DNA of 64,000 nucleotides, from the NCBI RefSeq assembly GCF_030867145.1, contig NC_134433.1, positions 12,661,216 to 12,725,215 of the forward strand, in the 5' to 3' direction. Position 1 is the stretch's first letter, and each line of letters starts with the position of its first letter. Below, piece by piece: positions 1-57,300 of this stretch. Source of the stretch: Opisthocomus hoazin. Taxonomy: Eukaryota > Chordata > Aves > Opisthocomiformes > Opisthocomidae. The position numbers were made by a program, and so were the translations under genes. Under the pieces are notes generated by a model. That model worked only from the letters and a program-made list of their open reading frames with translations, ran no database searches and was not told where the DNA came from.

Positions 1-4825
<4,825 letters not shown>

Positions 4826-7900: not shown

Positions 7901-9059
7901 CCCCAGCCTCCATGAAGGGGTTCAGCCCCCGGGGATACCCCAGCATGTGTCCCACCAGACCTGGGCCACTGCTGAGCGTCAGGCACCTGCCCACCCTGGG
8001 CAGCGTCGTCGCAGCTCTCGGGGGGTCCCACAGCCCAGAGGCGCGCTTTGGGCATCTTCATCGCCCCTGAAACTGCCGCTGAGCGGTGGCTGCAGCTCCT
8101 GCAAAGAGCCCTGGGCTGGCTGCCCCTCATCCGCATCCATCCCGCACCCCCAAACCGCTGCTGCTTCCAGGCGGGAGCTGCCGGGACCATCTGGGAGCTC
8201 TCCAGAGGTGAAGCCCTGATGGGGTGGCGAGGGGGCAGCCGACACGGGCTGCGGGGGCTGCCTGGCTCCCGGCGATGTCCCAGCACCGTCCGTCGTCCTT
8301 CGGAAGGCTGTGCTGGGAGGCACGGCTGTGCCGGAGGGACACCACGGAGCAGGAGCCGGTGGTGCCGAGGCCTGGCGTGCCGGGAGGTGCTCACCCCGCT
8401 GCTCTGGGGCAGTGACGGAAGCGAAGGTGAAGGCGGTCGTTGCGACACTGCCTGCGCCCGCGTGGGTAAATAAATAGGGCGTTGTGTTCCTGCCGGGGCA
8501 CGGCCAGGTGGCACGAGGGACACGGGCTCGGGAGTCAGGCACCGCCGGCCGTCACGCAGCGCACGGGAGGACGCGGGGGAAGGCAGCTCCCTGCCGCCAC
8601 GCTGCCTGGGCCTCCCGCCTCTGGCGTCCCGCGCCCCAGCACCTTGCGCCCTGTACGGCCATCGCCCACCCTCCCCACGGCGCGGGGCTGGGATGCCCTG
8701 TCCCGTGGGCTGGGAGTGAGCTACGGGGGCACGCACCCCCCTGCCAGCTCCAACACAGCGGCACGGAGTGGGCGAAAAGCTTGACGCGGGCCTTCATCGC
8801 CCGTCGCTGGCGTCTGGGAGACGGACGGGGCACGCGGTGCATCACCGGCTGAGGATGAGGATGGCTGGGAGATGGGCAGAGCTCTGCGTGCTGGCGGGGG
8901 GCACAGCAGCTGGGGGGCACAGGAGCTACCCCGCGCCTTCGAGGCTATGCGGTTGCTGGCTCAGGGAGCGGTTCCTGGCGGAGCGTGGGATTGTTTGTGT
9001 CATTAGCTGTCGCTGTTAATTGTTCTGACGCTGCTGGCACCAAGCGCTGCCTCTCCCTC

Positions 9060-9401
9060 ACGGCATCCCCCCGGCCCGGGCCCCTCCGCTCCTCCGGGGA
9101 GACCCCGAGGTGGGGACGGAGGAACACCGCACCCCCCCCCCCACCCCGCCCGGGCTCCCGCAGCCCCCCCGCGCACGCAGAGCCGGCGGTGCTGCCCCCG
9201 CGGCCGGCGCGGCGGGGACCGAGCCCCGGGAGCGGTGCGGGGTGGGGGGGCGGTGGCAGCGCTGCTCCCCGCCCCGGCGGGGCCGTGCCGAGGCGGGGCG
9301 GGCGGGGGCGGGCCGGGGGCGGGCTCCAGCGTCAGGCCCCGCAGCGGCGGGGGGCGGAAGGCGGCGGTGCGGGGAGGGGAAGGGGGGGAAACTTCGGGGG
9401 G
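9060..9401 (+). promoter_or_regulatory. ABR: CpG-island promoter of the upstream ABR first exon
   Basis: A dense CpG island with GC boxes (for example GGGGCGGGC around 9300) directly precedes the ATG at 9402. No TATA box is seen. It is the likely promoter and 5' leader for the BCR-like first exon. Confidence 0.5.
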
Positions 9402-9723
9402 ATGGCGGCAGGCGAGGCGGCCCGGGAGGACTTCTTGCGGCACTGGCAGGAGGAGTTCCCGGGGGAGGCGGCTCCCCGCATGGAGCTGGGCTCGGTGCGG
9501 GCCATGGAGCGGGAGCTGGAGCGCTGCCGCCGCCACCTCCGCCGCCTGCAGCGGGCGCTGGCCGAGGAGCGCTTCAAGGTGGGCTACCTGGAGGCGGCGC
9601 TGGCCCGAGCCCCCCCTCCCCGACCCCCCCCCGCCGCCCCCCGCCCGCCGCCGAGCCCCCCGGGCAGCTCCCCGGAGGGAGGCAGCGGCGGCAGCTCCGA
9701 CGCGGAGGACGGCTCCTCGGCAG
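9402..9723 (+). CDS. ABR: ABR alternative first exon with BCR-like oligomerization domain
   Basis: This exon encodes 107 codons plus one base. Residues 11-70 align without gaps, as I recall the sequence, with the N-terminal coiled-coil oligomerization domain of BCR. FLRHWQEEFP corresponds to BCR FAEAWKAQFP, PRMELGSV to PRMELRSV, MERELERC to IEQELERC and EERFKVGYLEAALA to QERFRMIYLQTLLA. A Pro/Ser/Gly linker (71-100) and an acidic tail follow. The exon ends at a CAG|GTGGGT donor in phase 1. That matches the phase of the usual ABR exon 1, so it can join the exon at 25165 to give an isoform of about 948 residues. The kinase-like and SH2-binding region of BCR exon 1 is absent. The ATG follows a CpG island. 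Homology is strong; splicing to ABR is inferred from phase, strand and order. Confidence 0.8.
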
Positions 9724-9920
9724 GTGGGTGCCCGGGGGGATGGGGGGGTGGGGGGGGGTCGTGCCCACCCTGCGCCCCACGCCAGGGACGGGGGTGTCCC
9801 CAGCCCCTCGGCCATCGCACGAGAAAGGGCGTCCCCAGCCCCCGCGCTGTCCCTGGGGAGCTCCCGTGCCGCACCGAGGGCACCCCGTGCCCACCCGTCC
9901 CCACACCGCTGCCAAGGCCC

Positions 9921-9984
9921 CCCCGAGCCCCTCTCCCATCCCTGTCAGCACACCCCGAGCCCCTCTCCCATCCCTGTCAGCGCA
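9921..9984. repeat. Two-copy 32-bp tandem repeat
   Basis: A unit beginning CCCCGAGCCCCTCTCCC occurs at 9921-9952 and 9953-9984 with about one mismatch. It lies just inside the intron after the BCR-like exon. Confidence 0.8.
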
Positions 9985-15900: not shown

Positions 15901-17904
15901 CAATACGATAGCTGGGACAGGCCTTCATCTGATATTAGAGGCTTTTTCCTCCAAGCTGCTGCCACCTTTCTTTCCTTCTCTGTCTGGTATTTTGAGAGGC
16001 CAAAGGTGCTGCTGCTGTGGCTGGGTCTCTGTCCTGCTCTCCACGCTTACTGAGAGGTAACTGCCTGGCTCTGGTGCCCTGCTCGGCTCCCCGAGGGCAG
16101 GAGGCTCTGGGCAGCTGCCCTCTGCTCCGGGCACCTCTCAGCCGTGCCCCAGGGCTGCCAGTGGAGCTTGGGGCCGATGCAGTGCTGGATTTGGGGTTTC
16201 TGTCCCGCAGGAAAGCAATACCCGGGGAGTTGGACTGAGGAGCGACGTGTTCGGGACACCCAGTGGGAAGTATCTGCTGTGCGCCTCAGTTGGGAGGGTG
16301 GAAACATTCTCATTTATTCCTCTTTTCCCTTGGTAAGCTCTGGCAAGGGATAGCTGCAGCTCTGCACCAGCGAGGGACAGCCCAGACCTCCCGGAGAACC
16401 CAGCACAGTGGGCGCCGGAGGAGCTCAGAAAGCCGGGCTCTCAGCTGGCATCTCCCACCACAGCCCTGCGCTCTGCAGCCCTGGCTGTGTCCCTGCCGTG
16501 GCTCCAGGACACGTAGGCTTCACCTCTCCCATCCAAAGGACTCTGGCTGCTCTCTCAGTCCTTGTCTAACCCTCTCCTCCTGCACTCTCCCCCGAAAACA
16601 CCCATTTTGCCCCACACCAGTGCTGGAGGTACAGGCGGCTCCAGAGCTGCTCCCTGGGTGCTGCCAGCCCCAGCCCGGCCCTGGGCGAGCACAGAGGCTC
16701 GTGTGCCGTGGCTGGAGGAGCCTCTTGCACAAGAGTCCAGAAATAGCGATGCGTGGGCTGGTGGGCAGGGGCTGGGCAGAGGCCAGGCAGACAGCCAGAC
16801 ACCAGGCAGGCTGTGCGGGGCCGGCCGGTGGCGGGGAGGGACGGCGGGACTCGGCTTTCGGCTCTCGCCGCAGGGATGCTCCCAGATGGAGTTGTACTGC
16901 AGTCAGAGCTGGGGGTGGTCAGAGGGGGTTGGGAACGTGGTTGGCAGCATCTCCTCACCCAGGGCTGGTCCGTGGCACCGCGGGGTGATGGGTGCCTGGG
17001 TGTGGGGGGGTGCTGCCCCTGCTCCCGGGAGAGAAGGGAGGAGGTTCAGTTGCTTTGCAGGTATCGAGGTTTTGTTGTTGTTGTTTTTGTAAAGGTGAAA
17101 AGAGCACAAAACCCAAAGTGGCCATGAAGCCCAAGAGTTTTTTGGGGCTGGTTTGTCCAGGCTGTGTGAGGTCAGCTGCCTGGGTTGGTGTGTGCAGCCA
17201 GGTAGGGGTACGGCATGGAGGTGGCTCCCATTTGGGTATATTGGTGCATGGGGAGGCTTTCCAGGACACCCGCCTGGCCGGGCTGCCTGGTCCTCCTGGG
17301 CCACGGCACTGCCGGGGCCTGCGGCGCGGTGTCATGCCAGGGGTTACCAGCTGGCCAAGGGCTCTTGGCAGTCTGGTGGCCTCTGGGTGGCTCATCCAAG
17401 TGCTCAGCTCGTGCCCCGTGTTGGATAAAAAGGAAGATGTGCAAAGGGGGGTTTGCACGGTGGTGCGGAGAGCCTGGTGCCGTGGGCAGTAGTGACCAGA
17501 AAGTGTGTCCGACTGGGGGAAGCATGTGGAAAACCCCCCGAGTGCATGTGGAGAGCCATGTGTGGAAAACCAGCAGGCCCGGGGGATGCCCACTGCCGCC
17601 ATGGTTCTGCAGCCACCGTGCCGGAGGGGGAGCAGCTGCATCTTGTGCTGGTGCTGGTGCTGCTGCACTGCTCCCCGAGGCGCACGCGGAGCACGGTTTC
17701 CTGCCATGAACAGGGTTGATGCGCTCAGCCCAACCGCCACCGCCTTCCTGGCAGCTCGCTGCGCCGGGCAGCATGGCCTCGAGCTGCGGGGGTCAGGGGG
17801 GCTGCAGGGGCGTGGGGTTTGGCTGTGGAGGGTAGAGGGGACTCGCCATTAGAACCTTTGAGGGGTGGTGCAAGGACAGGCTGTGGAGCCTGGGCAGGGG
17901 CAAA

Positions 17905-20659: not shown

Positions 20660-20720
20660 ATGGAGCCGCTGAGCCACCGGGGCCTGCCGCGGCTCTCCTG
20701 GATCGACACCCTCTACAGCA
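20660..20720 (+). CDS. ABR: ABR exon 1 (main isoform first coding exon)
   Basis: It encodes [20 protein letters not shown] plus one base (phase 1), essentially identical to the human long isoform start as I recall it. The donor A|GTACGT completes an Asn codon with exon 2 (NFNYG). Confidence 0.95.
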
Positions 20721-23700: not shown

Positions 23701-26700
23701 CTGGCAGAGCTGGGATGTATCTGGCCCGTGTCAGGGCTCTTCTCCATCCCACTCCGGGTGCAGGATGGGACCAGCCATCCCTCCGCACTGGCAGGGCTCT
23801 CCGCCTGAGCGGGCTTCACAGCGCTCTTTGACTTAATGATTAATCTACTTTCAATGTGAAGCTAAATGCAATATTAATGTGCTGAGTGGTGTTGGTGGGA
23901 GTCAGGGGAATCCTCGGCCAGGGTGGCAGGGCCATGGGGGCACGAAGTGGCGGTGGTGCGGGGTTTGGTCTGGGATGGCTGCTCCAGCCCCCAGACACCC
24001 TGTTTGGGCCAGAGTGTTGGCCAGGGTCTTGGCCGAGGTGCCCAGGGAGCCCGTGGGGACAGCTGGGTGGGGAGCAGAGCGAGGGGCTGGCTGGCACGGG
24101 GTCAGGTTGGGTGAGCCGTGCTTGCTGCCTCTTCGGGAGCTGCCGAGGGGGTCTTGGCTACGGGCCCTGGGTGGGGGGTGCTGGCTGCACCCTGCGTCCG
24201 CCCCTGCAGCAGCCAGGCTCCCTTCCCCCTCCCCTTTGTCAGCATCTCGGGGCTGCTGCAGCCGCCTCTTCCCGCCGCCACCGAGCCGCTGCCGTTTCCA
24301 TGGTAACAGGTTAGGATGTACCCCGGTCCCCCGCTGTGCCCCGGGGACCTGCCACAGACCCCGGTTGTGTCTCCCCCCCCCCCGCTCCCACTTGGGGCTC
24401 CGTCTCCCCAAAATGGCTTCCCCTGGGCTGTGGGCAATGGGGTGGGGGTTGTGGGGCATCCAAAAATGGGTGCTGGCCTGGCGTGGCGGTGGCCTCATCC
24501 TGCGCTGGAGGAAAGTGGGACCCTCCTGTCCTCCCAGCGTGGCCCGAGCCACCGACCCGCCATGGAGCTGCTGCCATCCCCCTTCTTCCAGGAGGGGTGG
24601 CACTGTCCTCCGTGCTGCGGACCCGGGCATCCTGGCACCCGTTCCCACGCTCCGAGGAGGGTGGGCACGGGGAAGCAGGGAGGACGGCAGCCGTGGCTGC
24701 CAGCCGGGCTCCATCCCTCCCCAGGGATGGCATGGGGATGGCATGGGGATGACATGGGGATGGTGGCCGCCGTGCTGGCAGGGCAGAGCCGCTGGTGTGT
24801 GGCCGGGGCATCTGGCAGAACAGCTGTTCCCGCACAGACGAGGCTTGCGGCCTCTCAGTGCTGTTAATTATGCAAATATAGGGAAGTGTGTCAAGCAAGC
24901 GGAGGATGCCCTGTGGGGCCAAGGATGCTCTGTGCGATGCCCTGCCTGCTCGGCCGGGCGGGCAGAGAGCAGGCAGCCGAGGCCAGTGGGGCTGGGGTGG
25001 GCTGCGGGTGCGGGCGTGCGTGTCTGTGCGTGGCCCCAAGCGTCAGACACGGGGTCTGTCCCCCGCAGGTACCCGCAGGCTGGGGCAGTTGCGGTGTGCC
25101 ATGCGGTGACCCTCGGCCGTGCCGCTGCCTGGATGCTCACCACCACCCTCTCTTCCCCTGACAGACTTCAACTATGGTGCGGACGAGTACGACGCTGAGG
25201 GCAACGAGGAGCCCAAGGCGCTGCCGGAGGGCTCGGAAACCATGCCCTACATCGATGAGTCACCCACCATGTCCCCCCAGCTCAGCGCCCGCGGCCAGGA
25301 GGGCGGGGACGGCGTCTCACCCACACCCACCGACGGCCTCGGCACAGGGGTAGGTGCTCGGGACGTGGAGCTCTGCGCTGGGTGCGATTGAAGCCGGGGC
25401 TGCGGGTGCCTGGCAAGGTTGTGTCAGCAGTGTCGGTGGTGCTCTGGTGTTGCTGTGACCTGGGGGACTGTCCCCTGGCATCCCAGACCCTGCGGGCCGT
25501 GGCGCTTTGGGGTGCAGCACCCTGTTCTGCTGCTGTTTGGTGAGGGTGTCGTGGCCGTGGGATGTGTCGTGTCCCTGCCCCGTCGTGCCACGCCGGTGGC
25601 AGAGCCAGCACGGCACGGGCCGGTGGGAGAGCGGGGTCCGGGTGCTGGAAACCAGCTGGGCTTGCTGGGAGATGTGAGGTCCCGGGGGTCCCCTGCTCCG
25701 GGGAGCCCTTGTGGACAGGGCGCAGCCGCTCGCCGGGCTGCCAGCTCCATCTAGTGGCACTCGGGGACGAGCCTCCAGTGGGCAGGGACACCTTCTGTGT
25801 CCCCCCCATTCTGAGGAGCTCAGATTTAACCCGTTCTCCCTCTGCTCTTCCGAGAGCATCCTCGGGAAGCGCTTGGGGCTCGTCCCGCATCTTTCGCAGC
25901 AGGGATGTTTGCCGGGCGGGAAAGCAGTGGGAAAAAATGTGGTGTTTTTTTTTTTTTTTCTCGGAATAAAAGTTTCCGTGCAGCCCGGGGGCGGTGGGCT
26001 CTCGGCAGGGCAGCGGGCACCCCTGGCCCCTCGGCGCAGGGCTCGGGGCTGCTGCGGGGCGCGACCGCCTGGCCCCGCAGCAGGCCGGGGAGGTGGGGAG
26101 GGGAGGAGGAGGCTGGGTTGGAAAAGGCGAAGGATTTTGTCGTGGAAAGGGTTAATCGCTTAACCCGGATGCTGAGGCAGAGGAGGCGAGAGGTGTGGCT
26201 TCCTCCCCAGGGCCCCGCCGCCGCGCAGCATCCTCCTCCCGGCACCCAGCGCGGCCCCGGGGCTGGGGCCGAACCCCTGGTGTCCCCCCCGCCCCGCACG
26301 ACGGAGCCCGGCCCGGGGCTGGGGCCAAACCCCTGGTCCCCAGCGGGACGCTGGGCCCAGCCCCGCGAGCCCCAGCCCTGCCACCGCGCTGCCGGGGTTC
26401 GGACGTGCTGTGGGCGGTGGGCTCCGTCCCGGGGGGCCGGCAGGGATGGCAGAGGGTGGGCCTGGGGGAGACCCTGAGGGAGGCTGGCAAAGCGATGCCC
26501 TTGTGGGGGGGGTGCTGGTGGAGCGTGCTGGGGCTGGAGGCGGGCGGTGAAGCTGGCTGGGTTGGAGCTGGCAGGATTGGGGAGCGGTGGAGCTCAGCGC
26601 CGGCTCTGCATCCAACTCTTTATCTTTTTTGGGAGCTGCCAAGGGGGTCTTGGCCGCGGGCCCCTGGGTGGGGGGTGCGTCCCTTGTGCCAGAGCTGAGC

Positions 26701-29700: not shown

Positions 29701-32700
29701 GCTGAGCCGCCGACGGCCGGAGCAGCAGCGGGGCTGCACACAGCCCGGGACCTGCCCTGGTGCCACCGGGCAGCGACCGCTGTGGTGGCACCTTCTGGGA
29801 AAGCCTCAGCTGGGGAAAAGGGTGGTGCTGGATCACGTGGCAGCACCGTCCGCTGCCGGGCATGATTTCACCGGGCGCCTCTGGACTCTGCCCTGGGAGA
29901 GTCCTGCTGTGCCGCGCACCACCCTGGAGCGCTGCCAGTGGCACCGGGCTCCTGGCCAGCCGGGAGCAGGGAAGGGAGCGAAGCCAGCACAGCCCATGGC
30001 TTCCCAGCTGGCTCCAGCCTGGCTGTGCTGCCCAGTGGGCCTGTGCCCGGCCCTTGCCATGGAGCTTCCCCGATCCTGGCGGGGACACGTGCCCATGTGG
30101 GGATCCTGGGAATGAGTCAGTGGGATGATGAGTTTCCTCCTGTGCTGGTTGCTGGCTCAAATGGGCTCTTTACTCTGTTGCTCAGGGCGAGCGAGATGCT
30201 GGCAAAGGCCTGGAGATGCGGAAGCTGGTGCTCTCCGGTTTCCTGGCCAGCGAGGAGATCTACATCAACCAGCTGGAGGCCCTCTTGTTGGTGAGCACAG
30301 CCCCCAGCCTGGGCAACCCCTCCGGCAGGGGTGGGTCGATGGGAGGATGGATGGGAAGATGGGAGGATGGATGCGTAGTTGGGTGGATGGGTAGATGAGA
30401 GGGTCGATGGATGGGTGGATGTGTGGTTGGGTGGATGGATGGATGGATGGGGTCATTTCTTCTTGGACAGCCTCCCCCAGGCAGGCCTGGCCTGGGCACT
30501 ACCTGGGAAGGAGCAGAGCTGCAGGAGCCACATCAGAGCCAGCAATGCTCTGGCCCGGCCGCCCTGTCTCACCTCCCCTTGCTGCCAGCGTGCCTGGCGG
30601 GGAGGTATTTATAGCCCCGCTTCCTCTTGCGGACTTGCTGGCCCCCGTGGAGGAGACACTGTTGCACAATGCAGGGGTCACCACTGCCACGGGGAAGTCT
30701 GCGGGGATGCACGCGCTGGGAGCCGTCCCTTGGTCCTGCTGCTGGCTGAGACCCGTCCTGGGCAGCCCTCGCTGCCAGCTCAGATCCCCCTCGTCTGCCT
30801 CTCAGTTCCCCTCCCAGCCCTCATCTCAAATGCTCTCCCTTCTCCTTCTGCAGCCTATGAAGCCGCTGAAGGCCACAGCCACTACGTCGCAGCCCGTCCT
30901 CACCCTCCAGCAGATTGAGACGATTTTCTACAAGATTCAGGACATCTACGAGATCCACAAGGAGTTCTACGACAGCCTGTGCCCGAAGGTGCAGCAGTGG
31001 GACAGCAACGTCACCATGGGCCACCTCTTCCAGAAGCTGGTACGCGTCTTCCCTGGGGCTTGCTCCGTTTGGAAGAGGAGGAGGGCCAGGGAGATGGAGC
31101 ACCGTGCTGCGGAGCTCAGCCCTATGGCGTGGCTCAGCTCACGCCCTGCCCTGTGCTCACTGGTGGCCGTGGGACTTGCTGCATCCCTCGCTGCCTGCCC
31201 GAGCCCTCCCGTCCCAGGTCGGGTGTTACTGCAGCCTCCGTGCCCCTCGCTGCAGCGGGGATGCCCACGGCTGGCAGGTCCTGCGTGTGACCAAGGTGGG
31301 GTTTTGGCTGGAGGGGCACGGTGTTGCTTTACCTTGGGGCTGGCGGGAGCCCAGACGTGTGGGTGACCCTCTGGGGAGAGGCAGGGAGCCACGGGCTCGT
31401 CGCTGCCTGCGGGCGCTGCAGCGATGGCTCCCTGGGGTCACCCTCTGGGTCCTGCCACCGCTTTGGGCTTGTGAAGGTAGCGTGGCTCTGCCCATGGGTG
31501 CTGTGACTGTGCCAGAGAGGGGAGGAGGAGAGGGCAGGTTGAAGTTTGCCGGGAGGTGGCTGTAGCTTCAGCCCGTGCTGTCCAGACGCCTGTTGGCTTT
31601 CTGCTGGATTTTGGAGGTTTGTGGGGGCACAGGATTGGGCCAGAGCCCCACTGCCCTGCCCCAGGTGAGGGCTTTCCCTGGGGCCCGCCAGCTGGCTGTG
31701 GTCTGGCTGAGCTTCGTGCCAGGAGGGGACAGCTCTGGGCAGTGTCCCCACGGTGCTGCCTGGCCCCTCGCGCTGTGGGGGGTTCAGCATCGCGCCGGGT
31801 GCCCGGCTAACCCCCGCTCCCCACAGGCCAGCCAGCTGGGGGTCTACAAGGCCTTTGTGGATAACTACAAAATCGCGCTGGAGACCGCGGAGAAGTGCAG
31901 CCAGAGCAACTACCAGTTCCAGAAGATCTCGGAGGTAAGCTGGACCGGGGCTGTGCTGGGGGGATGGGGCTGCCACGGCCGGGCTGTCCCAGTGCAGGAC
32001 AGAAGGACAGAGACCGCTGTCCCCGTGGCTGAGCTGACCTTGTGTGCCCTGCAGAGATGTTCTCCCTGCCCTGGGGACTCAGGGACAGGGCCATCGGCGG
32101 CTGTACTGGAGGGTCATGGTCTCCAAGTATTGCGGGGTTCGTTCCCCATGTCGCGCAAGCTCAGGCTGGGCTCAGCCCTTGCTGCCATCCTTTCTGGAAC
32201 GCCGGGGCAGCCTGCACCCGCTCCTCCATCCAGTGAGTGTGGGTGCTGGGTGCTGGGCACCTGTGGCTCATCTCCTGCTGGCTGCATCTTCATGCCTGGC
32301 TCCCCTATAGAGATGGGGACCTCCGTGGTCGCAGCCTGGCTCCCCGCTCCCTCCAGCCCCCCCACAGCAGGGCTGTCCAGCTCAGTGGGACCAGCAGCAT
32401 CCCCGGGCTGCTGTGGGGCTGGGTGTCCTGCGCTGGGGTGCCCCGTGGGTCCACTGCATCCCAGCTGCTGGGCACTGCCAGAGCTGCTCCCGGCCAGGCA
32501 GCATCCCATGCAGTCTGTATCTCCACCCCAGCACACGTGTGTGGTCTCCAGCGTGGCCAGGCTGGGGCTGGGGGGAGATACCAGGGTGCAGGAAGGGTGG
32601 GGAGGGGACCCCCATGACCTTGAGGAATGACCTCCCCCCCCTCCAACCCCCCCCCCGTGGGCTGCTCTGATGGGCCTTTCCCTCCCTAGGAGCTGAAGGT

Positions 32701-35700
32701 GAAGGGCTCCAAGGACTTGAAGGAGAGCCACACGTCCGTCACCATGGAGGGTACGGCGGGTGCGGGCGTGGGGAGGGGGCTGCAGCCTTTTGTCTGCGCG
32801 CGGGCCCGGCGCGGATGAAATACTGAGCAGCTCCCACGAGCGGAGCCCTTTGTGTTCCCGTGTGTGGAGCCAGCGAGGGGGGGGGAACACAGCTCTTCAG
32901 GATGCTGGGGGCGTGCGGCAGCCCCCCACCCCCTGCCCACCCCCTCCTCCCCGCGTGCGCCGAGAGCCGTGCTGAGGGGCCGATGCCGTGCCGCAGCCGG
33001 GCTGAGCTGCCGCGGGGCGGCAGAGATGGCTGCGCGGAGACGGGGCTGCCATGGAAATCCTCGTCGTCGTCCGGCTCTGCTGTAACTGCACCTACGGTGA
33101 GGCGAGGGGTGCGGTTCCAAATTCGGGTGCCCGGCGGGGAGCGATGCTGCGGGGATGCTGGCCCCGGGGCTGGCTGTCCTTGCTGGGGGGGGGGAGGCTG
33201 CGTCGTGCTTTGCAGCCTGAAGTTGGGAGCGTCTTTGTTCCAGACTCTATTGAATCATCTTGGCTCTGGCACACGCGGCCACGCGCTCGCTTTCCCCGCC
33301 GGGCAGGGGCTCGTGCCGGCAGCGGGACAGCGAAGGGCTGGGACGGCGGGGGGACCCCCTGCCCGGGCTGTGCCGTGGGGATGGCGGGAGGGAGGGGTCC
33401 CCGTTTGCTTGCCGGAGGCTGTGAGCATCGCGGGGCTGGAACGCCCATCTCTCAGCGGCTGGGGAGGAGAGGTGCTGAGCATCCCTGGCTCCGTGCTGCC
33501 TGCGTGTGGGTCCCGGGCTGGTGGGACCGTGCTGGTGAGGAGCCTGGCGCTTCTCGCTTGTGCTGGGACAGCCCCTCCCGGCGCTCGCCCGGGCTTTGCG
33601 TGTGGCTGTAGCGATGGCAGCAGGAGGGTCCATCCCCGCTGTGGGTCTAGGGTGGGGGAGAGGGGAGGGACACCCTGCCTGCCCCCTCCATCCCAGAGCA
33701 GGGCTCTCACCGGCTGCTGCCGGGAGCGGGGCTCCGGTTTTACCTGCTGGCATGCAGTCGTGGGAGATGCAGTCTCCAATTCAGGGTCCAGCCCCATGTC
33801 CTTGCCCCCCGAACAGACCCCCTCCTCGCTGGGAGGGGGGTGTCCCTCTCTCAGGACTGAGCACCACAAAGCAGCACCCTCCAGGGGAAAGGCGATGGAG
33901 ACCCCGCAGCTCGTAGCGCAGGGTGGGGTCGGCGGCACCTTTCCCTCCTCTCCCCCGGCCCGAAACCCGGCCCTGCTTGGCCCCGGCAGTTTGGGGAAGT
34001 GCTTCGAAGCGAAAGGGAAACCCAGAGCCATCGGCCTGGGCGCGAGCAGCCCGGGGAGAGACGCGAGCGGGTGGGTGCGGGGAGCAGCACCGTGGATGTG
34101 ATCTGTGCCTTCGCCCACCCAAAGAGCCAGGAAGGAGGAGGAGGGTCTGGCTGCTCAGGGTGAAACGTGCCTCTGAAGACCCCTCGGGGCTGGTTTCCCA
34201 CAGGGAGGGTGCATGGCAGGAGAAAGCGGGGTGTCTGCCCCGTGGGGGGGGCTTCTCTGCCCCCCTGCCCCGGACAGAGTTGTACGTGCAGTCACGGGGG
34301 GCTGCAGGGAGGGGACATGGGGCAGCGGTGTTGGGACGATGCCTCAGCCCCTGGGAGTCTCTCTGCTGGTGGGGCAGGCTGGGTTCCCCTGGCACCCAGG
34401 GCTGCCTGGGGTGGGGGAATACGGGGTGTCCCACGGGGCGGCAGAGCCCCGTGAAGGCAGGGCAGGGACAGGACCCGCCGCTGAGCCAAAAGGGAAACTG
34501 AAAAAGCTGGGGGTGACGAGCAGGTCTCCCGTCCCACAGCCACTGCACGGCGAGCTGGCGGTGCTCGTGCCGGTGCTGTGCCTGGGGAGGTCCTTTGCCC
34601 CCGGCGGGGACACGCTGGTGCGGTCGCAGTGGGGATGTCCTGCAGCTGGCAACAGCTGGGGCAGAGTGGTGTTTTCACGGCGGCCCTGCTGGCTTTGCAA
34701 CCCGTGACCTGTGGCAGCAGAGGGGAGGAGGACGTGGTGGCTGGGTCAGTGTCCCCGTCGTGACCCGTTTTAGGGCAAGGACAGACCTTGCCGGCACGGG
34801 GCCATGGCTGGAGCAAAGCGGCGTGTGGGGTCACCACGCAGCAGTGGTCAGGGCTTGTCACCCCGGCGGGGACCTCGCAGGTGCCCACGCTGCTGGCGAA
34901 ACCCCTCGGGTGCCACCTCAAAATGGAGGTGCATGTCGGGCAGTTGCCAGCGCTGGGCTCTGCCCTTGCTCCGCACACCAACCCGGCCGTGGTCTCTCCT
35001 GCTGCCGGCGTGGCAGGGCACGGGGCTGTGGCATCGAGCCGTGGCTCACCGCTGCTCGTCACAGTGACGTGATGGCCCAGCTGTCTCTGGCTCTGTCCGT
35101 GATGGACCCCAGACACTCCCCAAGGGCTCTGTGCAGACCTGAGGGGGTCTCTGGGCGTCTGGTCTCCCCTTCTTGCCCCTGTGGGATGCGGTGCTGGCTC
35201 TGGTGGGTGGGAGAGGGGGCCAAGCCCCAGCGGTGGGTGGCTGCTGATGCCTTCTCTCTCCCCACAGCGCTGCTGTACAAACCGATCGACCGTGTGACAC
35301 GGAGCACCCTCGTCCTGCACGTGAGTGTGGCACCAGTCCCGTGGCAGGGGACAGTGGGGGCTCTGCTTCCATTGCTCCTGGGGACCCGCAGCCGTGGGGA
35401 GAAATGCTGTGGGGGGTCCCTGGGGTGGGTGCTGCAGGCAGGGCAGTGCCCTTGTGCCGCTCACCCACGCCTGTCCCCTTCCAGGACCTCCTCAAGCACA
35501 CCCCAGCCGACCATCCCGACTACCCGCTGCTCCAGGACGCCCTCCGCATCTCGCAGAACTTCCTCTCCAGCATCAATGAGGACATCGATCCCCGGAGGAC
35601 AGCGGTCACCACCCCCAAGGGGGAGGTGAGGCAGTGGGGAGGGCAGTGCCTGGGCACGGGGTGAGGGCTGAGCCCTCTGCCAGCCCCTGGCTGGTGTCTC

Positions 35701-38700
35701 CACCCTGAGGAGCTCCATGGTGCTTGGCCAGGAGATGGAGGGTTGCCTCTAGACACAGTCCTGGGTGCTCTACCTGGCCCTTGCTGCTTGCTGGCACCCT
35801 ACTGAGAGTATGGGACCCAAAACAGCACCCAGAGGCTATGCACCTTCCCATGCCCCGGTTGATTTAGCCATGGAGAGGGACAGGAGCATCCGTCCCCGGC
35901 GGTTTGTTGGCCTTTGCTGCCTGCCCACTCTCACCCCAGCCCTGCTGCCCCACAGACCCGGCAGCTTGTCAAGGATGGCTTCTTGGTGGAGCTGTCGGAG
36001 GGCTCGCGGAAGCTGCGGCACGTCTTCCTTTTCACCGACGTGCTGCTCTGCGCCAAGCTGAAGAAGACGGCGGTGGGGTAAGGAGGGTGCTGGGCATGGG
36101 GGGAATGTGTCACAACCCCCCCGTCCTCCGTCGGGCAGGGGGATGTGCTGGGGAGGGGGTCAGGCATCACTCGGTGCCTGTGCCCCGGCCGCAGGAAGCA
36201 CCAGCAATACGACTGCAAGTGGTACGTGCCCCTGGCCGACCTGGTGTTCCCCTCGCCGGAGGAGTCGGAGCACTGCCCGCAGGTCCACGTCATCCCCGAC
36301 CACGAGCTGGAGGACATGAAGATGAAGATCTCAGCCATCAAGAGTGAGGTGCAGAAGGAGGTGAGAGGAGGGTGCAGGTGGTTGGGGAGGGTGCGGGACC
36401 TGCTGCTGGGGTGGGCGCCTTCCTCTGGTTCGGGGATGGGACATGGGGGGCCAGGGCTGCCTGCAAAAGCTCCCGTCTGCTCCTTGCCTGCAGAAAGCCA
36501 ACAAGGGGCAGAGCCGGGCCATTGAGCGCCTCAAGAAGAAGATGTTTGAGAACGAATTCTGGCTGCTCCTCAACTCACCCGCCATCCCCTTCCGCATCCA
36601 CAACCGCAACGGGAAGGTGAGGAGGTGGGCTGGGGGCCGGGCTCAACGCTGCCTGCGCACAGCCTGCTGCATCACCCTCTCTCTTACAGAGCTACCTCTT
36701 CCTGCTGTCATCCGACTACGAGAGGTCAGAGTGGAGGGAGGCCATTCAGAAACTGCAGAAAAAGGGTAAGTCTGGGGCTGCCGAGGCATTCTTGGTGGCT
36801 CCTGACCCCCCAGATACCATGAGAAGGTCCTGCAGGATCGCAGCCTGCTCGGTCTCTGGGCCAGCACTGAAGCTCCTCTCCCGTCCTCTCCCAGACCTCC
36901 AGGCCTTCGTCCTGAGCTCGGTGGAGCTGCAGGTGCTCACGGGATCCTGCTTCAAGCTACGCACCGTTCACAACATCCCAGTCACGAGCAATAAGGACGG
37001 TGAGTGTCGGCTGGGCTGGCGGGTCCGTCCTTGCCTCCGGATGATGCCGGGGAGGAGCTGCGGGGTCCCTCGGCCGGAGCGGGGTCCCTGCTCGGGGACC
37101 CTGGCTGTGCAGGGGGACAGCTACCCACCAGGTGGCACTGCCGGAGCAGAGCCAGACTCCCGGCCGGAGCGATCCCGGCTGCAACATGGGGCTGCTTTTG
37201 GGGTCTCTCCAGTATCCCCATGGGCTGGGCAGGACCAGGGGGTCCCCAGGGCGAGACCCAGCCAGCCCTACTGGAACCTCACCCAGGACTGTCCAGCAAG
37301 CAGGAGAGCTCGGGATATCTGGCAGGGATGATCGGCAGTGGGGGATACGTGTCCTCTGCCAGACCTTAGGGACAGCCCTCCAGGGGGGCTGGGGACATCG
37401 GGGTGTCACCGCAGGCACCTAGCACTCGCGATGGCAAAGGCTGCCTTGGGCACGGCGGCTGGCACGCTGGCCCCGGGGCACGGGAGGTGGCAGCTGAGCA
37501 CTGACACAGCCTCTGCTCTCCCCACTGCAGACGACGAGTCCCCCGGGCTCTACGGGTTCCTGCACGTCATCGTCCACTCCGCCAAGGGCTTCAAGCAGTC
37601 TGCCAGTAAGTGTGGGTGCCCACCCTCGCTCGGAGGGGCCGGTGTGATCGGAAGAGCTGGGGTCCAGCACGTGGCCCTGCTCTGCCGACCATGGTCCCTG
37701 GGTTTTCCTCGGGTGCTGAGCAGTGTCTGCTCCCCCAGATCTTTACTGCACGCTGGAGGTGGACTCCTTCGGCTACTTCGTCAGCAAAGCCAAGACCAGG
37801 GTTTTTCGGGACACCACAGAGCCGCAGTGGAACGAGGTGAGAGGAGGGTGAGACGCAGGGAGGGGACTGTGCCGGCCCTTTCCCTTCCAGCCCCAGTTTT
37901 GGAGCTGCTCTGGGGTGCTGGGGCTGAGCCACCCTCCCTCCGCGCCCCAGGAGTTTGAGATCGAGCTGGAAGGCTCCCAGTCCCTGCGCATCCTCTGCTA
38001 CGAAAAGTGCTACGACAAGACCAAGCTCAACAAGGACAACAACGAAATCGTGGACAAGATCATGGGCAAGGGGCAGATCCAGGTACGCGCTGGGACTTTT
38101 GGGCATCTTCTCACGCAGTGTTGGACCTCTTGGGGCCAGGTGCCTGGGCTGGGAGGGTTGCCCTGGGGCGATGCCTGGAACGGGAGATGCCTGGCAGCAT
38201 GGGCAGGCAGCTCTGCTTTTGGGAGTGGGGCACAGGAGTTGTGGCTCAGGGTTGAAGGCAGGGAGGTAGGTGGGCATCAGGCATGTGGGTGATGGTCCTG
38301 GGGTGCAGCAGCTGCAGGAGAAGGTGGGACAAAGTGAGAGGGGGTCCTGCGGACGTGGCAAAGCCAGCAGTTACCCCCAAGACAAGCGTCCAGCCTCAGC
38401 TGGGCTGGAAGCGTTCCTGTCCTGCTGCCCTCTGTGCTGCGGCCCTCGGGGGGGCCCAGGGAGGGCAGTGAGCGTGCAGTCCCCTGTCCCTCCCCGCCAG
38501 CCGTGGCTGTCCCCCTCTGCCACCATCTGCCTCCCCTGCGCCTCCATCAGCCGCTGTTATGGCAACGGGGGTTTCCAGGGCAACGGCTGAGCCGCCTCTG
38601 ATTGGCAGTTGCCAGGCAGGGAGGATGGAGGCCTGGGCTGCCCTGAGATGCTCCCAGGTGAGCAGGACCGGGAAGATGGGGGTGGGGGGGACAGGCAGCC

Positions 38701-41700
38701 CCCAGATCCCACATCCCACCAGCACCCGGCTTGGCCAGGCTGCAGGGAGGCCCAGGGCAGCAGGGACGGTTCGGGACTGGGGTGTCCCTGGGTTTTCCTG
38801 GTGGGGTCCCGCAGTCTGGCTGCCTTCCCCTGTGTGCTGGGGACAGCGTCACGCCTGGGACACAGCCCTTGACCCAAGGCCACTTCAAAGGGCCCGGCGT
38901 GGCCGCCTGCTCCGTGGGAAAGCAGCTGAGGGCAGGTCCCCGGAGAGCAGGGAGCGGCACGGAAATGCTGCCGGGAAGGGGGACACTGCCAGGGGACGGC
39001 ACCGCACGGGGTGGGAGACAGGGGCTCGGCTTCACCAGTGGCTTGTTTGTACCCGAAATCACCCGTCTGTTGCCCTCTCCCCAGGGAAATGGCAGTGTGG
39101 GGGTGGCATTGGGCCAAGTGGGAGGGCTGGGGCAGGGAAGGGGCTCAGCACCCCGCGGGGATCAGCCCAGCTGCGCTCTCGGAAATAGCCTGGGTCAACA
39201 AACATGAGTCACGCTGGGAGACGCAGGGGTCGGGACGGGGACAGCACAGCTCGTCCCTGCCATGTGAAAGTTGTGGGGGAAGAAAGGGGGAGAGAGGAGG
39301 CCCTGGGGCTGCTTATCACAAAGGAGGACCCGGCTGGACAGAATGGTGTCAGGGCTGGGGCTGTCCTGCTGTCACCCAGAGCCACAGCTTGGCCACTGTG
39401 CCAGGAGCTGGGGGGGTGGCAGGGCAGGGACAGGGCAGCGAGGCTGCGGGCAGGACGGGCAGTGCTGCTCGTGGGGCTGTGGGCTGTGGCCGCATTGCCC
39501 TCTGCCCTGAGCTGTTCAGGCAGAGATGCTGCCCCGGGTGGTCCTTACCCTGGCTGGTCCCTGGGCTCGTTGAGGGCTGCTGCTGGTTCCAGGTAGCAGC
39601 AGGAGTGGGAGACGCTGGGAGCACTGGCACCAGCAGCTTGGCAAAGGCCCGTGGTGTGGGGGGGGCTGCCAGGATGGCGGAGCCCCCTCCGCAGCCGGCG
39701 CTGTGGCCGCTGCCCAGCTCTAATCTGATGGCCCAGGCCTGTGGGTTGGCCACAAAAGCAGCGTGGTGGCATCACTAGCTGACGGGAGTGGGTCAGCGTG
39801 TGAGGGGGACGCTGCAGCCCCTCTGCAGGGAGCAGCGGGGGCTCCCGAGGCTGTGGAGGTGCCACAGGTGGGACTCACATCTTGCCAACACTGAGGTCGT
39901 GGCTGGGTCCACAGCGGGGCTGGGGTTGGCACCAGCCTCCTCTCGAGCATCCTGGCAATGAGCTCCAAGGGGTCTGCAGCATGACAAGTGCTGGACGCCT
40001 ACCCCATGCCCCATCCCCGTGGCTGGCAGAGGGTGGGCACCCTGTGTCAAGTGGGCCCGGCTGCTCCGTGGGAAGGTGTGTCTGGGCACGGGGCGGCTCC
40101 GCTGCAGCTCCTGGTTGGCCTTAACTCCAGTTTGTTGTTGTTAACCCCATTTTGCACGCGGTTGCCAAGGCTGGGATGTGCCGTGGTCAGGGTAGAGGTG
40201 CTGTGTGGGGCTCGTGTCCCCGTGGGGGGCTCACGTCCCCAGCGCTGCAGGGCTCAGCCCTGCTCTGAGCTGTCCCAGTTGCTCCCGGCACCTGTGGGTG
40301 CTGGCAGAGGTGCCCAGTGCTGTGATGGGGTGGCAGACAGATGCCAGGGGTGGGCAGAGCAGGCTACAAGTGCTCATGTCCACATTGCAGAGGTGAGAGG
40401 CAGGGTCTGGCCCCTGCGCCCTGAGGCAGGCAGGGAGATGGGCAGTGGGTGCATGAAGGGGGGCATCGAGGTGACGCTGGGGGGACGGGGCAGGAGGGAG
40501 CAGCCCCTTCCCCAGCCCCAATTTGATGCGTTGGGGAGATGTGGCTGTTGGAGTGGAGCCTGTGTTGTCATGGGCACAGTGCCTGCTGTACCCGCAGGCG
40601 ATAGCTGCCTGTCCGTCTGTCTCCCATGCACCGGGCTGGCGGGGGCTCTGGAGGGGGAGATTGGTGGTGTCGGGGCTCCCTGGACCTGCAGGGACCCACA
40701 GGGTGACCCACGTGGGCTCAGGGGGCTGCTGAGGGCTGGATCCAGCAGTGCAAGTCTGTGTGTCCCTCCCCCAACCTGCACCTCGCCTGTCAGGAGCAGC
40801 AGCAGGCAGTCAGGGACCCTGCCAGGGCTGGGGCGCAGGGCAGAGCCCTGCCTGCACCCCCCTATCCCCTCGCCCCGCAGCCCTGCCCCACACCATCACC
40901 CCCTGGCAGTGGGGCTGACAAAGGCCAGGGCAGGCTGGGGGGGGGTGCTCGGGGGGTCCCTACCTGTCCCTAGGCCTGACAGGAGCCCCCCCAAAGTCCC
41001 ATCCCCGTGCCCCTTGCCGAGAGTGGGAGTGCTCCTCCGCGGAGCCGGGGATGCTGCGGCCGACGGAGCCGGGGATGCTGCGGCCGACAGCGGCGATGCC
41101 TCCCGGGGCGGCAGGGACGCGGGTACCGGGTACCGGTGGATAACGGCGGCGGGGAGGCCCGGCAGCCCCTCCAGCCTTCCCGAGCAGCGGCGGCGGGTGG
41201 CAGGGCGAGGGTTAAAAGCGTGGGGGCCGCCGAGGGGGGGGGCTGCCTTTGAGTCACTTCCTCGCAGGGGGAGGGAGGCTTTTGGGGCTGCCGAGCTGCC
41301 TCTCGCCAGCCTGGCTCACACCCTGAAGATGAGCCCTGCCCGCTCGCCTCCCCGCCGCCCCAGCCGGGCTCCCCTCGCCGGCCCCCGCCGCCCCGGCCGC
41401 CGCTGACCCCCCGCCCACAGCAGAAGGGATGCGGGTGCTGTCCTAACCCAGCCCCGGTCAGACCCCCGGGCCCCTCTTGGCCATCCTCTCGCCTCCCGGA
41501 GCCGAAGCGGTCATCGCGATGACGGAGGTGCTGGTGCAGCCGGACGGCAGCCCCGGACCCGTGGGCGAGCAGCCGGAGCGCGGCGTGGAGGAGCCCGAGG
41601 GGAAGCGGCCCCCCAACACGGGCGCTCGCCTCTGGGGCAGGGTGCGCAGCAAGCTGCTCCGGCAGAAGGTGCCTCTTGGGGTGCAGGGGAGGGGGGACAG

Positions 41701-44700
41701 CTCGGGGGGGATGGTGGTGGGTGCCGAACGGGCTCTGGGTTGACTTCCCCGTGTCGCCGGGCTCTGCCGTGCGTGGTGACTATGGCTTTTTGGCTGGTGG
41801 CTTTGTGGGGTGTGGGGGGCTCTGATATGGGGGAGGGGGTCGTATTGCTTGTGGGCAGAGGGCTGTGGGGTCCGTGCGTGGAGCTGGGAGGCTGTCTGGG
41901 TGCTTTGGGAGCTCTCGGAAGCAGTTTGCAGCCTGCGGGGTGCTCGTTCCGCTCGTTCCCCTTCTTCCCTCTCCCTCTGTGCGCTGGGGGGGTCAGAAGG
42001 GCTGAGCTGTTGGGGGGTCTTGTGGAGGGGGGGGAGCTCCCCCGCCGTGGCTGAGGCCGGGCTCCTGGGGTGCTGCAGCACCCGGTGCCTGCGTAGCCCC
42101 CCTCACCAGGGCGCTGCTGGGTTTGCAGCCCCTCACCCCACATCCATCCAGGCTTCCCCCAGCTCACAGCTGTGCTGCAGCCCCCTCAGCCGGACTGCCC
42201 GTCTTTGGGGGAGCACAGGGCAGAGCTGGGCAACGGAGGTGACAGGGGAGGGGGACAGCACCGCCGCAGGCTGTCCCTGAGCCCCCACAGTCTCATGGGG
42301 GGCTCTGGGGGGCTCCCCTCCGTGGGATCCCCCTGCATGGGGAGCTGCTGGCTCGGGGCTCGGCTGTGGCTGCGGGCAGGAGCTGCCTGGGCCCGTGGGG
42401 GTTCGGTTTGGCAGCAGCGGGGCCGGGGTTTGCTCGGCGGCGGGGCTGCCTGTGACGCAGCGGCATTAACCTCGATTCTGTGCCGCCGCCGCTGCTCCCG
42501 CAGAGGGGATTAAGGGGCGGCGAGGGCTGTGCGAGGAAGCTGCCCGGCGGCAGCCGCCGGCTGTTGTTGGGTCAAAACATGAGGGAGTTTCATTTCGCAT
42601 CGCCACACGTCCCCACCGCGGCCAATGGTTTCCCTGCCTGCTTCCAACTGGGAGCACTGGGGCTGCAGGGGCAGGATGCGGCCCCGGCGGGTCCGTGCGT
42701 GGTCCCGGGGTGCTGTGGGTGCCTGCTGCTTCTCGCGTCGCTCTCAGACAAGGCTGTGAATCGCCGATTTTTCCGGGGTTGTGCTTTGCCGCCGGCAGCG
42801 TCCGCTGATGTGGGGACAGATAGAGCAGCTCAGGGACCTCCTGTTCCCTGGGGAGGGAGCTGCTGGTGCGGGGGTCTGGTGGGGGCATCCCCTGCCCACC
42901 GGAGCCTGGGCAGCCGTGGGAGGCCAGGCTAGGGTGCCCATGGGTGCTGTGCTGACGGGAAGCAACCCTGGTTGTAGCAGCTCCCCCGGGATCCCGCTCC
43001 CCAGGACCGTGGTAGAGATGGCCTCACTGGCTGAGTCACCGGTTTGCTCCTGATGGCTTCACCCTGGGATGATGTTTGGGTGACCTCATGGGTGTGAGGC
43101 ACCGAGAAGGGACATGCCCAGCGTGTCAGCCCCTGCCCTGCCACAGCATTCCAGTGCTTGGGGCCCTGGGGAGCTGCCGTGAGGGCTTGGAGCCGTCCCA
43201 GCTCCTCACCTGGGAGCCCTGGGGACCCGGCACCGCTGGGGTCTGTCTCAGCTGCCACTGCCCACGCAGGAGCTGCATCCACAGTGCACAGCCCGGAGGT
43301 GTCTTGAGGACCGAATCCCAGGATGTGGCCTCATCCCCTTGAGTCCACTCGCTCCGTGCATGGGACAAGCAGCAGGCAGGGGCTGCGGGGAGCAAGCGTC
43401 AGCAGGATTCAGGGGGCCCCTCTGCAACCAGAGCCTCCCCAGAACACACGAAGCTCTGTATGGCTGCTGGGATGCTCGTTACCTGCCACTCTGCCACCTT
43501 TCCCTCTGCGATCAGAGGCCTTGTCCTGAAAGCAAACACCTGTGGATAATTTGGGAAAACAGGATGATGGCAAATCCCTGCAGCTGGGAGCAGGGGGTGT
43601 TTCGCCTCGCCATGAGGAGTGTGGCACCGTGGCGGGTGCTGGCCCGAGCATGGATGCTGCGCCGCTGCGGAGAGTTCCCAGAGACGCAGGAGGGACCAGC
43701 CCGGAGAGGCACCGGTGACCCAGCTGAGCTGTTTCCCCAAACACAGGCTGGAGTCTGAAGCTGCTGAACAGGAGCCGAGGTCTGGGACAGCAGCGTGTGT
43801 CACTTGTGCCATCCTGCGCTGCGCTGGCAGGGAGGCTGTTCCCCGGGTCGCCCAGGACAGCAGTTCCCCACCGGCCTGGGACCTCCCCGTGGTGTGGTGG
43901 AGCAAGGCAGCTGCCTGTGGAGCAGAAGGAGATGGTGGTGGCAGCTGAGACGGGAGGGTTTGCCAGCGCTGTGTGGGCAGGAGCAGCCTCTGGTGCCGTG
44001 GGTGGCTGCTCCCATCCGTCCTCCCACGCCTGGAGACGAAGCGTCGGCCGCGGCTTTGCCTCCTGCGGGGAGCGGGCAGCGTGGCAGTGCTGCCCGCTGC
44101 GAGTGCTGCCGGGGCCAGGCCGCAGCCCGCTGCCCTGCGGGTGCGTGGGGACCTGCCTCGGCTGCACGGGAGCCCGGGCCGGTGGTGCCAGCTGAGTTCA
44201 CCCAAATTCGGAGCCATGCCGGTGGCTGCGGGGAGCTGGATGGGGACGGTTCTGCCTGACTGGGGGCAAGCAGCTGCGGGGAGGCGTCACGCTCAGGGTA
44301 AGGTTTGCGACGCTGGCGGCAGCCGACCTGGCTTTTATTAAAGCTTTCTGCAGAGCCCTGCTAAAGCTCTTCCAGATGTGAGCTGCCAGGGCCATCGGAG
44401 CGGGGGGACCCAGGGGACGGGGATGGGGAAGACGTATGTGGTGGTTGCAATTAAACTTGCGCTGCGGAGCAGGGAGGCCCACTGCTCCCGGCTCGGCCGG
44501 CGGTAGAGGGCTTCGCTGCCGCTGCCTGGGGCTCACAAGGACGGACGCTGCCGTGAGCGGGACCGGGCTGTGCGGGGAGAAGGGGTGAAAGCCCCCTGGG
44601 ACGGGCGGCGTTGGGTTGGCATTGGCCATAGTGGGTGCATGGCAGCCATGGGGGGATCTGGTGCTGGGGAGAGAGCGGGGAGGAGTTGGAGCGGCAGGAC

Positions 44701-47700
44701 TGGGGTTGGCGGCAGTCTGGCTGCAGCCTTGTAATCCTGGCATCCAAACGTGCTGCAGGGCCCCATGGGAGCCCAGGGCAGCTGCAGCCTTCCACCTCCT
44801 CCTCCCGCTCCCCCCGCTGCAGTTCCCTGCCGCCGCAGGGCTGGCCGGGCTGTGGCAGGGGTGCCGGGGAGGGCTGCACATCAGGAGCCATTCCTGGGCT
44901 GTGCTGGAGACCGCAGCGTATTGAGCCATGCTGGAGACTGCAGCGTGTCTGGTGGCCCTGTGGCTGCCATGGAGCTGCTCAGGCTCACCATGGCACGGGG
45001 CTGGGCATGGGGTGATGCCGTGGTGCTGAGTCTGTGCCGAGAGCCAGGGCAGCTCGATCCTGTCCTGGGGAGCGTGAGGTCTTGGTGTGCAAGAGGGACA
45101 TGAGGGACCCCAGGGTCTCCCCCATCATGACGTGCCGTGGTTTCATGGGCAGCCAGAAGCTGGGGCAGGGATATGGCAGCTCCGTGGCCAGAGCAGCAGC
45201 TCTGGACATGTTTGTGGTCACCTGGAGCATCTCCCGAGCCAGCAGCTGTAGGAAATTCTTGCGTCCTTGAGGAGTGACCCCGCTCGCTTGGCCCGAGCCT
45301 CGCCTGGCAGCTGCACACACGTGGCCCTGGGAGCGCCCGCCGGTGCCTGCCTGCTCCCGCATCCCATCCCCTTTCCTGAGGGGACATTAGTGCCGGGCTT
45401 CGCCCCGCTGCCCGCCCCGTGCATTACAGGGATCGATGGGGCCAGATCGATGCCACCAGCTGGGAACCCAAAAGCCCCGGAAGGCAACTGCACCCGCTTC
45501 TGCCCAGCCCTGGGGCCTGGCACCCGCTGTGGCGTGTGCCGGGGCCTTGGGAACGCCAGCACCTCGCCGCAGCGGCCGGGCGTCGGGGCAGCATTACCGA
45601 GTCCTCTGCTAGCCCCAAAGCCAGAAATAGCGGAACCCGTCATTCCCAGGGGTTATAAATAGCCTTGGCTATGGGGAGATGTTGTTTTTCTGCACGGAAA
45701 ACGCTGCCCTAGTTCTGTTTCATCAATCTGCCGCCAGAAATAGTCCTGATTTCTTGGAAATTTCTTACTGCTCGGGTGTGGGTTAAAGCTCTGCCTCATG
45801 GGGGGGACCAGGCGGGGAGGCTGAGCCCACCCGGTTTCGGGGCACAGCCTGAGGGACCCCAGACCTTCCCCTCTCCATCCTCCTGCTGCGGGCAGCACAT
45901 TGCCAGGGAAGAACATGTCCCGTGCCTGACACCATCTGCGGGTCAGGGGCTTCGGGGGCTGCCGGGCTGGGGTGGCAGAGGGGCTGGCACAGGGCTGCGT
46001 CCCTGTGGAGCTCACGCACCTTCTCTCCCCGCAGCTGGACCCGCAGGCTGTGCAGACGAAGAACTGGCACATGGACGTGATTGAGATGAACGGGGTAAGC
46101 AGGGCTGCGGGGTCCCGTGGCCCCTCGCTTTGATTGCGGCCCCTTCCCCGGGGCTGTGCTGTGCCCTTGTGCGATGCAGAGGTGACGGGCCAGGGCTGGG
46201 CTGCTGGGACTCACCCCTGGTCTCCCACAGATCAAGGTGGAGTTCTCTATGAAGTTCACAAGCAGAGACATGAGCCTGAAGAGAACCCCGTCCAAAAAGC
46301 AGACTGGTGTCTTCGGGGTCAAAATCAGCGTCGTGACAAAGTACGTGCAGGGCTTGGGGGGCTGATCTGCTCCCATCCCTGTGGGTGTGGCATTGCACCA
46401 TGTCCCCTTGCTCCCACCAACACCGGAGAGCTCAGCTTTTGTTCTCTGCTGGGGACTTGCCTGTTCCTTCGCCAGCCCCATCCTTCCCACCCATCCCACC
46501 CCTGTCCCGGGGTTTGCAGAGCTGGTCTGGCCACTGCGGGGTCCCCTGGGAATCTTTGCTCATGGCTCTGCTCTCCGTGCCAGGCGCGAGCGCTCCAAGG
46601 TGCCTTACATCGTGCGCCAGTGCATCGAGGAGGTGGAGAAGAGGGGCATCGAAGAGGTCGGCATTTACAGGATCTCTGGCGTCGCCACTGACATCCAGGC
46701 ATTGAAAGCCGTCTTCGATGCAAGTGGGTGTCCTGCGGGATGGCCACCCTTCACGTCACGTTCCCTTGGGAGGGTTCACAGGCACTGAGACCTGCCCTGG
46801 CCCCCTGTCCTGCAAGCCCAGGGTCTGGTTATTGCACTGCACGTGTGCAAAACGTGCCAGCGTGCCCAGGGAGGGGCTGGGGGCGAGGAGGAGGGTGTAG
46901 CTGGGAAAGCAAACGCCCAGAGGTCCCAGCTTCGTTTGTGCCTTGGTGTCTCTGAGCTGCCGCTGCGTCTGGCCGGCTCCTGGGAGACACTGAGTCAGGG
47001 CAATGATGCAGATGCGTTTGCAGATTGTTCCGTGTCTCATTACCCGGCTCGGCGGGAGCTGCTCAGCTCTTCCCAGCCCCAGCCTGGCTGAACGGGGCTG
47101 TGGACTCAGCGGTGCTGTCGCTGCCTTCCAGCTGACAGCCTGCCCGGATAGCTGGGGTGAGGCAGGGGTTGAGACCCGGAGGGGAAGGAGGCACGGGAGG
47201 TGTCACGTGTGGGTGCTCTCTGGACAGATAACAAGGACATCCTGGTCATGCTGAGTGACATGGACATCAACGCCATCGCCGGCACGCTGAAGCTGTACTT
47301 CCGTGAGCTGCCCGAGCCCCTCCTCACTGACAGACTCTACCCTGCCTTCATGGAGGGGATTGGTAAGGGCTCAGGGCTGGGGAAAGGGTCAGTGCCCAAG
47401 CATGGCTCTGGCACTGCCTGCTCCGGGATGGGAGACTCCTGAGGGTCCTTCCCAGATCTGCCCACTTGGTCGTGGCCGTCCTTGCTGGCTCCAGGCCAGC
47501 TCGGGGCTCGTGGTGCTGCTCCCCAGGGAGCTCATGCACTGCCTGCCGGGAGGCATCTGGCCATGGTGGGTCCCGCTGCTGCACCAGAAGTCACCAGACC
47601 CTGTCCTGAGCCTTCTCCCTCCTTGTCTCCAGCCCTCTCGGATCCTGCTGCCAAGGAGAACTGCATGATGCACCTTCTTCGCTCTCTGCCTGACCCCAAC

Positions 47701-57027: not shown

Positions 57028-57300
57028 GACCGGCCTCGGACACCCGGCGCCGCGCCCCAGCCCACTCCAGGCGCCGGTAACGCGGCTCCCGGCAGCCGTG
57101 GCGACGCGCGGGAGCCCACGGGAGCTGTAGTTCCGCCGAGGGGAGGGCCGGCCGCGCTCTGGCGGAGAACTACAACTCCCGGCAGGCTCCGCGGCGCGGG
57201 CGGGCGGGTCGCGCGGCGTCTCACGGGATTGGCAGTCCCTGGGGACGACCGGGACTACATTACCCGGCGTGCCGCGCGCTGCCCCCCTGGCGGCCGTTGG
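57028..57300. promoter_or_regulatory. TIMM22: TIMM22 bidirectional-type CpG promoter with three ZNF143-like motifs
   Basis: Three matches to the ZNF143/Staf consensus (ACTACAATTCCCAGCATGC type) are visible. One is on the minus strand at about 57134-57114 (GGAACTACAGCTCCCGTGGG). Two are on the plus strand, 57168-57187 (AACTACAACTCCCGGCAGGC) and about 57253-57272 (GACTACATTACCCGGCGTGC). An ATTGG CCAAT box lies near 57229. Such clusters mark strong housekeeping, often divergent, promoters. Confidence 0.65.

Follow-up and report, generated by a model that had tools for sequence, protein, structure and literature searches.

The window analysed here, the whole stretch of 64,000 nucleotides of contig NC_134433.1 from Opisthocomus hoazin, contains the ABR gene on its forward strand, whose exons were mapped by tblastn of the human ABR protein. 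The canonical first exon (20660..20720), which encodes 20 residues, has a phase-1 donor, and its match to human ABR conserves 20 of 21 residues. Exon 2 (25165..25349), whose own donor end was set at the best-scoring site, has an acceptor usable by either of two first exons, and further coding exons, recovered as matched pieces, extend over 30195..49821 to the C-terminus. On the same strand, 10.9 kb before the canonical first exon and 15.4 kb from exon 2, lies a putative alternative first coding exon of ABR (9402..9723) of 107 codons plus one base, which comprises a BCR-type oligomerization domain and then a Pro/Gly/Ser-rich tail; its position upstream of exon 1 on the ABR strand, and its translation, are as given in the preliminary description of this DNA. 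The canonical exon 1 donor (GCA|GTACGT, 20720-20726) scores low with the donor matrix used throughout, at 2.7 bits against 9.9 bits for that of the upstream exon.

Several other features accompany the gene. A CD225 domain piece (1798-1890, minus strand, E 6.4e-10), contained in a frame at 1354-3330 upstream of the coil exon, is probably TRARG1 (TUSC5), which we take to be a neighbour of ABR in the human locus as well. A reverse transcriptase piece (17720-18433, forward strand) is found in an ABR intron and, together with a forward-strand motif at 19058-19071 which we assume to be a CR1 tail, presumably marks a LINE; the two elements point to a bird or reptile genome. Directly before an AT-rich stretch starting at 58 kb there is a CpG-rich island (57001-58500, observed/expected ratio 0.91-1.0) that might serve as promoter for the gene that follows; Pfam matched none of four open reading frames with starts in the 55-58 kb interval.

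The open frame at 9402-9723 proves nothing in itself, since all three forward frames are open across this interval, and it is the homology of the encoded peptide that provides the evidence. The Pfam profile PF09036 (Bcr-Abl oligomerisation domain) matches the frame with 92.2 bits (E 1.9e-26) against a curated cut-off of 23.1 bits, and no other Pfam family was found on it at E up to 1. Residues 11-70 align without gaps to the BCR chain in PDB 1k1f (its residues 7-66; E 2e-11; the second-best PDB sequence match has E 0.014), which bears out the gapless match to the BCR coiled-coil domain that had been proposed. Within the exon, the stretch homologous to BCR residues 7-65 (9432..9608) covers part of the short helix, the loop and the long coiled-coil helix and shares 24 of 59 residues (41%) with BCR of the same genome; the low-complexity tail (9609..9723, residues 70-107) has no BCR match. 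Arg/Glu/Leu-rich and GC-rich sequence can mimic coiled coils, and a BCR similarity no better than that of generic coiled coils was the test named beforehand as able to overturn the identification. Chance or generic similarity of this kind is nevertheless extremely improbable, and is contradicted by the Pfam and PDB sequence matches, which have no competing family, and by a shuffle test in which the ungapped BLOSUM62 score between the exon and same-genome BCR was 127, while 5000 residue shuffles averaged -16 and never exceeded 35; the first helix and loop are also matched (F..W...F, PRMEL.SV). A search of the genome (1.48 Gb, 415 contigs) with PF09036 gave two sites at E up to 0.001 among the three candidates scored, BCR itself on contig 13 (132.9 bits), identified by its reading frame and downstream exons, and the exon at the ABR locus (92.4 bits); this search scored the best candidates only, so that a more diverged copy is possible. 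As an observation made on sequence, the presence of a BCR-type oligomerization exon in ABR is confirmed.

Structure prediction is consistent with this assignment. AlphaFold places helices at residues 2-18 and 32-69 when given a two-row alignment and at residues 3-18 and 32-69 when given the single sequence, with lower confidence from residue 81 onward in both models and a pTM of 0.43-0.47. For both models the top Foldseek match is 1k1f (probability 1.00, all other fold matches reaching at most 0.12), with 1.3 Å over 61 columns for the two-row model and 2.1 Å over 63 columns for the single-sequence model, the respective E-values of 9.3e-3 and 2.9e-3 being modest for a chain of this length. The predicted models thus display the short N-terminal helix, loop and long helix of the 1k1f fold. 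With a heptad register assigned from the 3-4 hydrophobic spacing, all 11 core positions of the long helix are either identical to BCR (7) or conservatively replaced (4), compared with 16 of 27 positions outside the core (Fisher p 0.016); of the six remaining registers, one likewise gives 11 positive substitutions out of 11, but with hydrophobic residues at 6 positions rather than 10. The apparent retention of the heptad core is supportive only. Because 9 of the 27 non-core positions are identical to BCR and two aliphatic BCR residues (57 and 62) are replaced by Gly or Ala in the ABR exon, its stability or oligomeric state may differ from that of BCR.

Comparison of the ABR coil exon with same-genome BCR at the nucleotide level gives identities of 49, 64 and 47% at codon positions 1, 2 and 3, where composition would lead one to expect 26, 25 and 32%; the GC content at these positions of the coil part is 0.83, 0.50 and 0.96. 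The corresponding dN of 0.58 and dS of 1.61, the latter near saturation, describe the ABR-BCR pair and are not assignable to the ABR branch alone. For this pair, the codon comparison indicates that the protein sequence was maintained as silent sites drifted. The same figures weigh on the possibility that the exon is a relic, an ancestral first exon that is recognisable but unused, with ABR transcribed from the exon at 20660 (or others) only. The good conservation of canonical exon 1 (20 of 21 residues) agrees with such a reading, but we consider it unlikely, given 59 aligned residues with neither gap nor stop at 41% identity, an identity at codon position 2 far above expectation, a good start context (G at both -3 and +4 of the ATG) and a strong donor, all of which have persisted since BCR and ABR, with their near-saturated silent sites, diverged. 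An unused exon this old should no longer be intact, and only a recent loss of use would fit.

The donor itself (GTGGGT after CAG, 9724..9729, phase 1) scores 9.92 bits and is the best of the GT sites of 9402-10109, the runner-up at 9578, inside the coil, having 8.48 bits; of 3391 GT sites in the window, 0.4% attain this value. The frame remains open to 10106, and a 32-base tandem repeat occupies 9921-9987 within this extension; a longer exon running past 9723 was considered and rejected, there being no BCR match in the extension and the donor after 9723 scoring best. This phase-1 donor, CAG|GTGGGT, fits ABR exon 2, which starts at 25165 after CAG, as had been proposed, and because the canonical exon 1 is likewise phase 1 the two first exons would be interchangeable. 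The identity of the exon and its phase relative to exon 2 are thus strongly supported by PF09036, 1k1f and the splice phases. A GC- and CpG-rich stretch around the exon (8501..9900), delimited by GC content and CpG observed/expected ratio, is a putative promoter island; at 8501-9500 the GC content is 0.759 and the ratio 0.78, but a ratio of 0.5 is exceeded by many stretches of this GC-rich window, which makes the evidence for an island weak.

The arrangement of the exon closely parallels that of BCR in the same genome. BCR exon 1 comprises 505 codons plus one base and ends in ACA G|GTGTGT, again in phase 1, and BCR exon 2, about 49 kb from exon 1, begins ag|AT GCT, the split codon being GAT for Asp. 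The ABR coil exon terminates in GCA G|GTGGGT and, with ABR exon 2 starting ag|AC TTC, the split codon would be GAC, also Asp; the exon 2 peptides of the two genes are alike (E 1.2e-6), one of the pair being MPYIDDSPSSSPHLS. Since exon order, phase and split residue are shared, common ancestry of the first exon is much the simplest account, and the view that the BCR/ABR ancestor already had the coil exon gains strong support from the structure of the two genes, the exon, phase, split residue and exon 2 being common to both; the coil domain would then have been present before BCR and ABR split. The 15.4 kb that separate the coil exon from ABR exon 2 would allow it to be part of a different gene, or of a transcript of its own that is not joined to ABR exon 2. 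We regard this as very unlikely, because the BCR arrangement recurs here in phase, split residue and exon 2 and because the selected open reading frames of the window (sets of 9, 10 and 10 among 266) carry no Pfam domain other than the CD225 piece on the minus strand and the reverse transcriptase. The interval 9402-9723 is therefore very probably a real ABR exon that offers the gene an alternative coding start, corresponds to the beginning of BCR exon 1 and was ancestrally inherited.

The likeness to BCR exon 1 is confined to its beginning. BCR exon 1 in this genome (locus L001, minus strand) encodes 505 residues, while that of human BCR, which we take to be roughly 426 residues, is shorter. 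When same-genome BCR exon 1 was compared with the window by tblastn, residues 7-65 were the only part matched at E < 0.01 among the matches listed. The kinase-like and GRB2-binding region that follows the coil in a complete BCR exon 1 does not follow it in the ABR exon, and a remnant of that region elsewhere in the window was rejected, nothing beyond the coil reaching E < 0.01 among the matches listed. Weaker matches involve BCR residues 84-152, on the minus strand, with E 0.020 unfiltered and a shorter piece at E 3.4 when filtered, and residues 265-304, also on the minus strand (3869-3988), with E 0.10 whether filtered or unfiltered. The absence of BCR exon 1 matches beyond the coil at E < 0.01 agrees with the suggestion that the exon is short and has no kinase-like or GRB2-binding part, and at the level of sequence the coil here occurs without that region.

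These observations suggest how an ABR protein carrying the coil could arise. Transcription would start from the GC-rich stretch around the coil exon, and splicing in phase 1 would link that exon to position 25165, the start of ABR exon 2, leaving out canonical exon 1. The predicted product is an ABR of about 946 residues (859 - 20 + 107 in human numbering), an estimate based on a human ABR length that we take to be 859. Its N-terminus would fold as a short and a long helix and would associate by way of an antiparallel coiled coil in the manner of the BCR domain, which forms domain-swapped dimers and tetramers, so that the RhoGEF-PH-C2-RacGAP part would be clustered by the coil, possibly also with BCR, and GAP activity could be altered by the clustering. 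On this model, ABR with the coil should self-assemble and might pair with BCR.

In the available part of its text, PMC3044668 describes Abr as being without the N-terminal oligomerization domain, which agrees with the statement in the preliminary description that ABR is usually portrayed in this way, and the part of PMC6505627 available describes ABR as without the kinase activity of the BCR N-terminus. Transglutaminase 2 cross-links Bcr and not Abr, a difference attributed to the absence of the domain from Abr (PMC3044668, in the same part), and the functional importance of the BCR coil is apparent from BCR-ABL, which it allows to oligomerize and become active (PMC3044668, PMC10970269, available parts). 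A non-neuronal Abr isoform is mentioned in that part of PMC3044668, so that alternative N-termini of ABR as such are not new. No description of ABR with the coil domain was recognised in openly licensed PubMed Central among the matches listed, and viral, prokaryotic and phage collections contained no relatives of the coil exon, as expected for such collections. Taken as a whole, the preliminary description is partly supported: the identity of the exon, its ancestry, its shortness and the absence of the domain from published ABR stand, and the assembly of the product is retained here as a prediction.

Similar sequences may already be present unremarked in databases, and automatic gene models may list the exon, as the Pfam profile fits it better than does a profile built from BCR only. 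A BCR-only profile of the human and same-genome sequences scores the ABR exon at 48.6 bits, compared with 92 in Pfam, while same-genome BCR itself obtains 132.6 bits in Pfam and 177.1 in the BCR-only profile. Nine variants of the ABR exon, in which residues were changed to those of BCR, were scored for profile preference: in Pfam the score shifted by -0.5 to +1.5 bits in seven of the nine and by +3.5 and +5.5 bits in the other two, whereas in the two-sequence BCR-only profile every variant gained, by 2.1 to 8.2 bits. A tentative explanation is that the Pfam seed includes sequences of the ABR-exon type or diverse invertebrate ones; the differing sharpness with which the two profiles are tuned also contributes to the score gap. 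A wider reading, which we put forward only tentatively and rate as somewhat doubtful, is that two forms of ABR exist across sauropsids, and perhaps beyond them: the short form already known and an ancestral long form whose coil allows ABR to tetramerize and to mix with BCR. If this were true, promoter choice could tune clustered Rac-GAP activity, and what the literature describes as a coil-free ABR would be either an incomplete picture or the result of loss in particular lineages.

The coil has been regarded as distinguishing BCR from ABR; should ABR be able to carry it in some vertebrates, cross-assembly of the two Rac regulators would be possible and the domain would predate the split of their genes. 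Compared with ABR as described in the available part of PMC3044668, a Rac GAP with DH-PH, C2 and GAP domains, the form proposed here belongs to the same gene and has the same exons from exon 2 on, but published ABR is there without an N-terminal oligomerization domain, and the canonical first exon at this locus provides 20 residues in its place. Compared with BCR exon 1, PF09036 and 1k1f, the ABR coil exon shows gapless homology over 59-61 residues and the same succession of short helix, loop and long helix, and like BCR exon 1 it is a first coding exon whose phase-1 donor would yield Asp at the junction with a homologous exon 2. It differs from BCR exon 1 in having 107 codons instead of 505, in its 41% identity and in ending in a Pro/Gly/Ser-rich tail, the rest of BCR exon 1 being unmatched at E < 0.01 among the matches listed.
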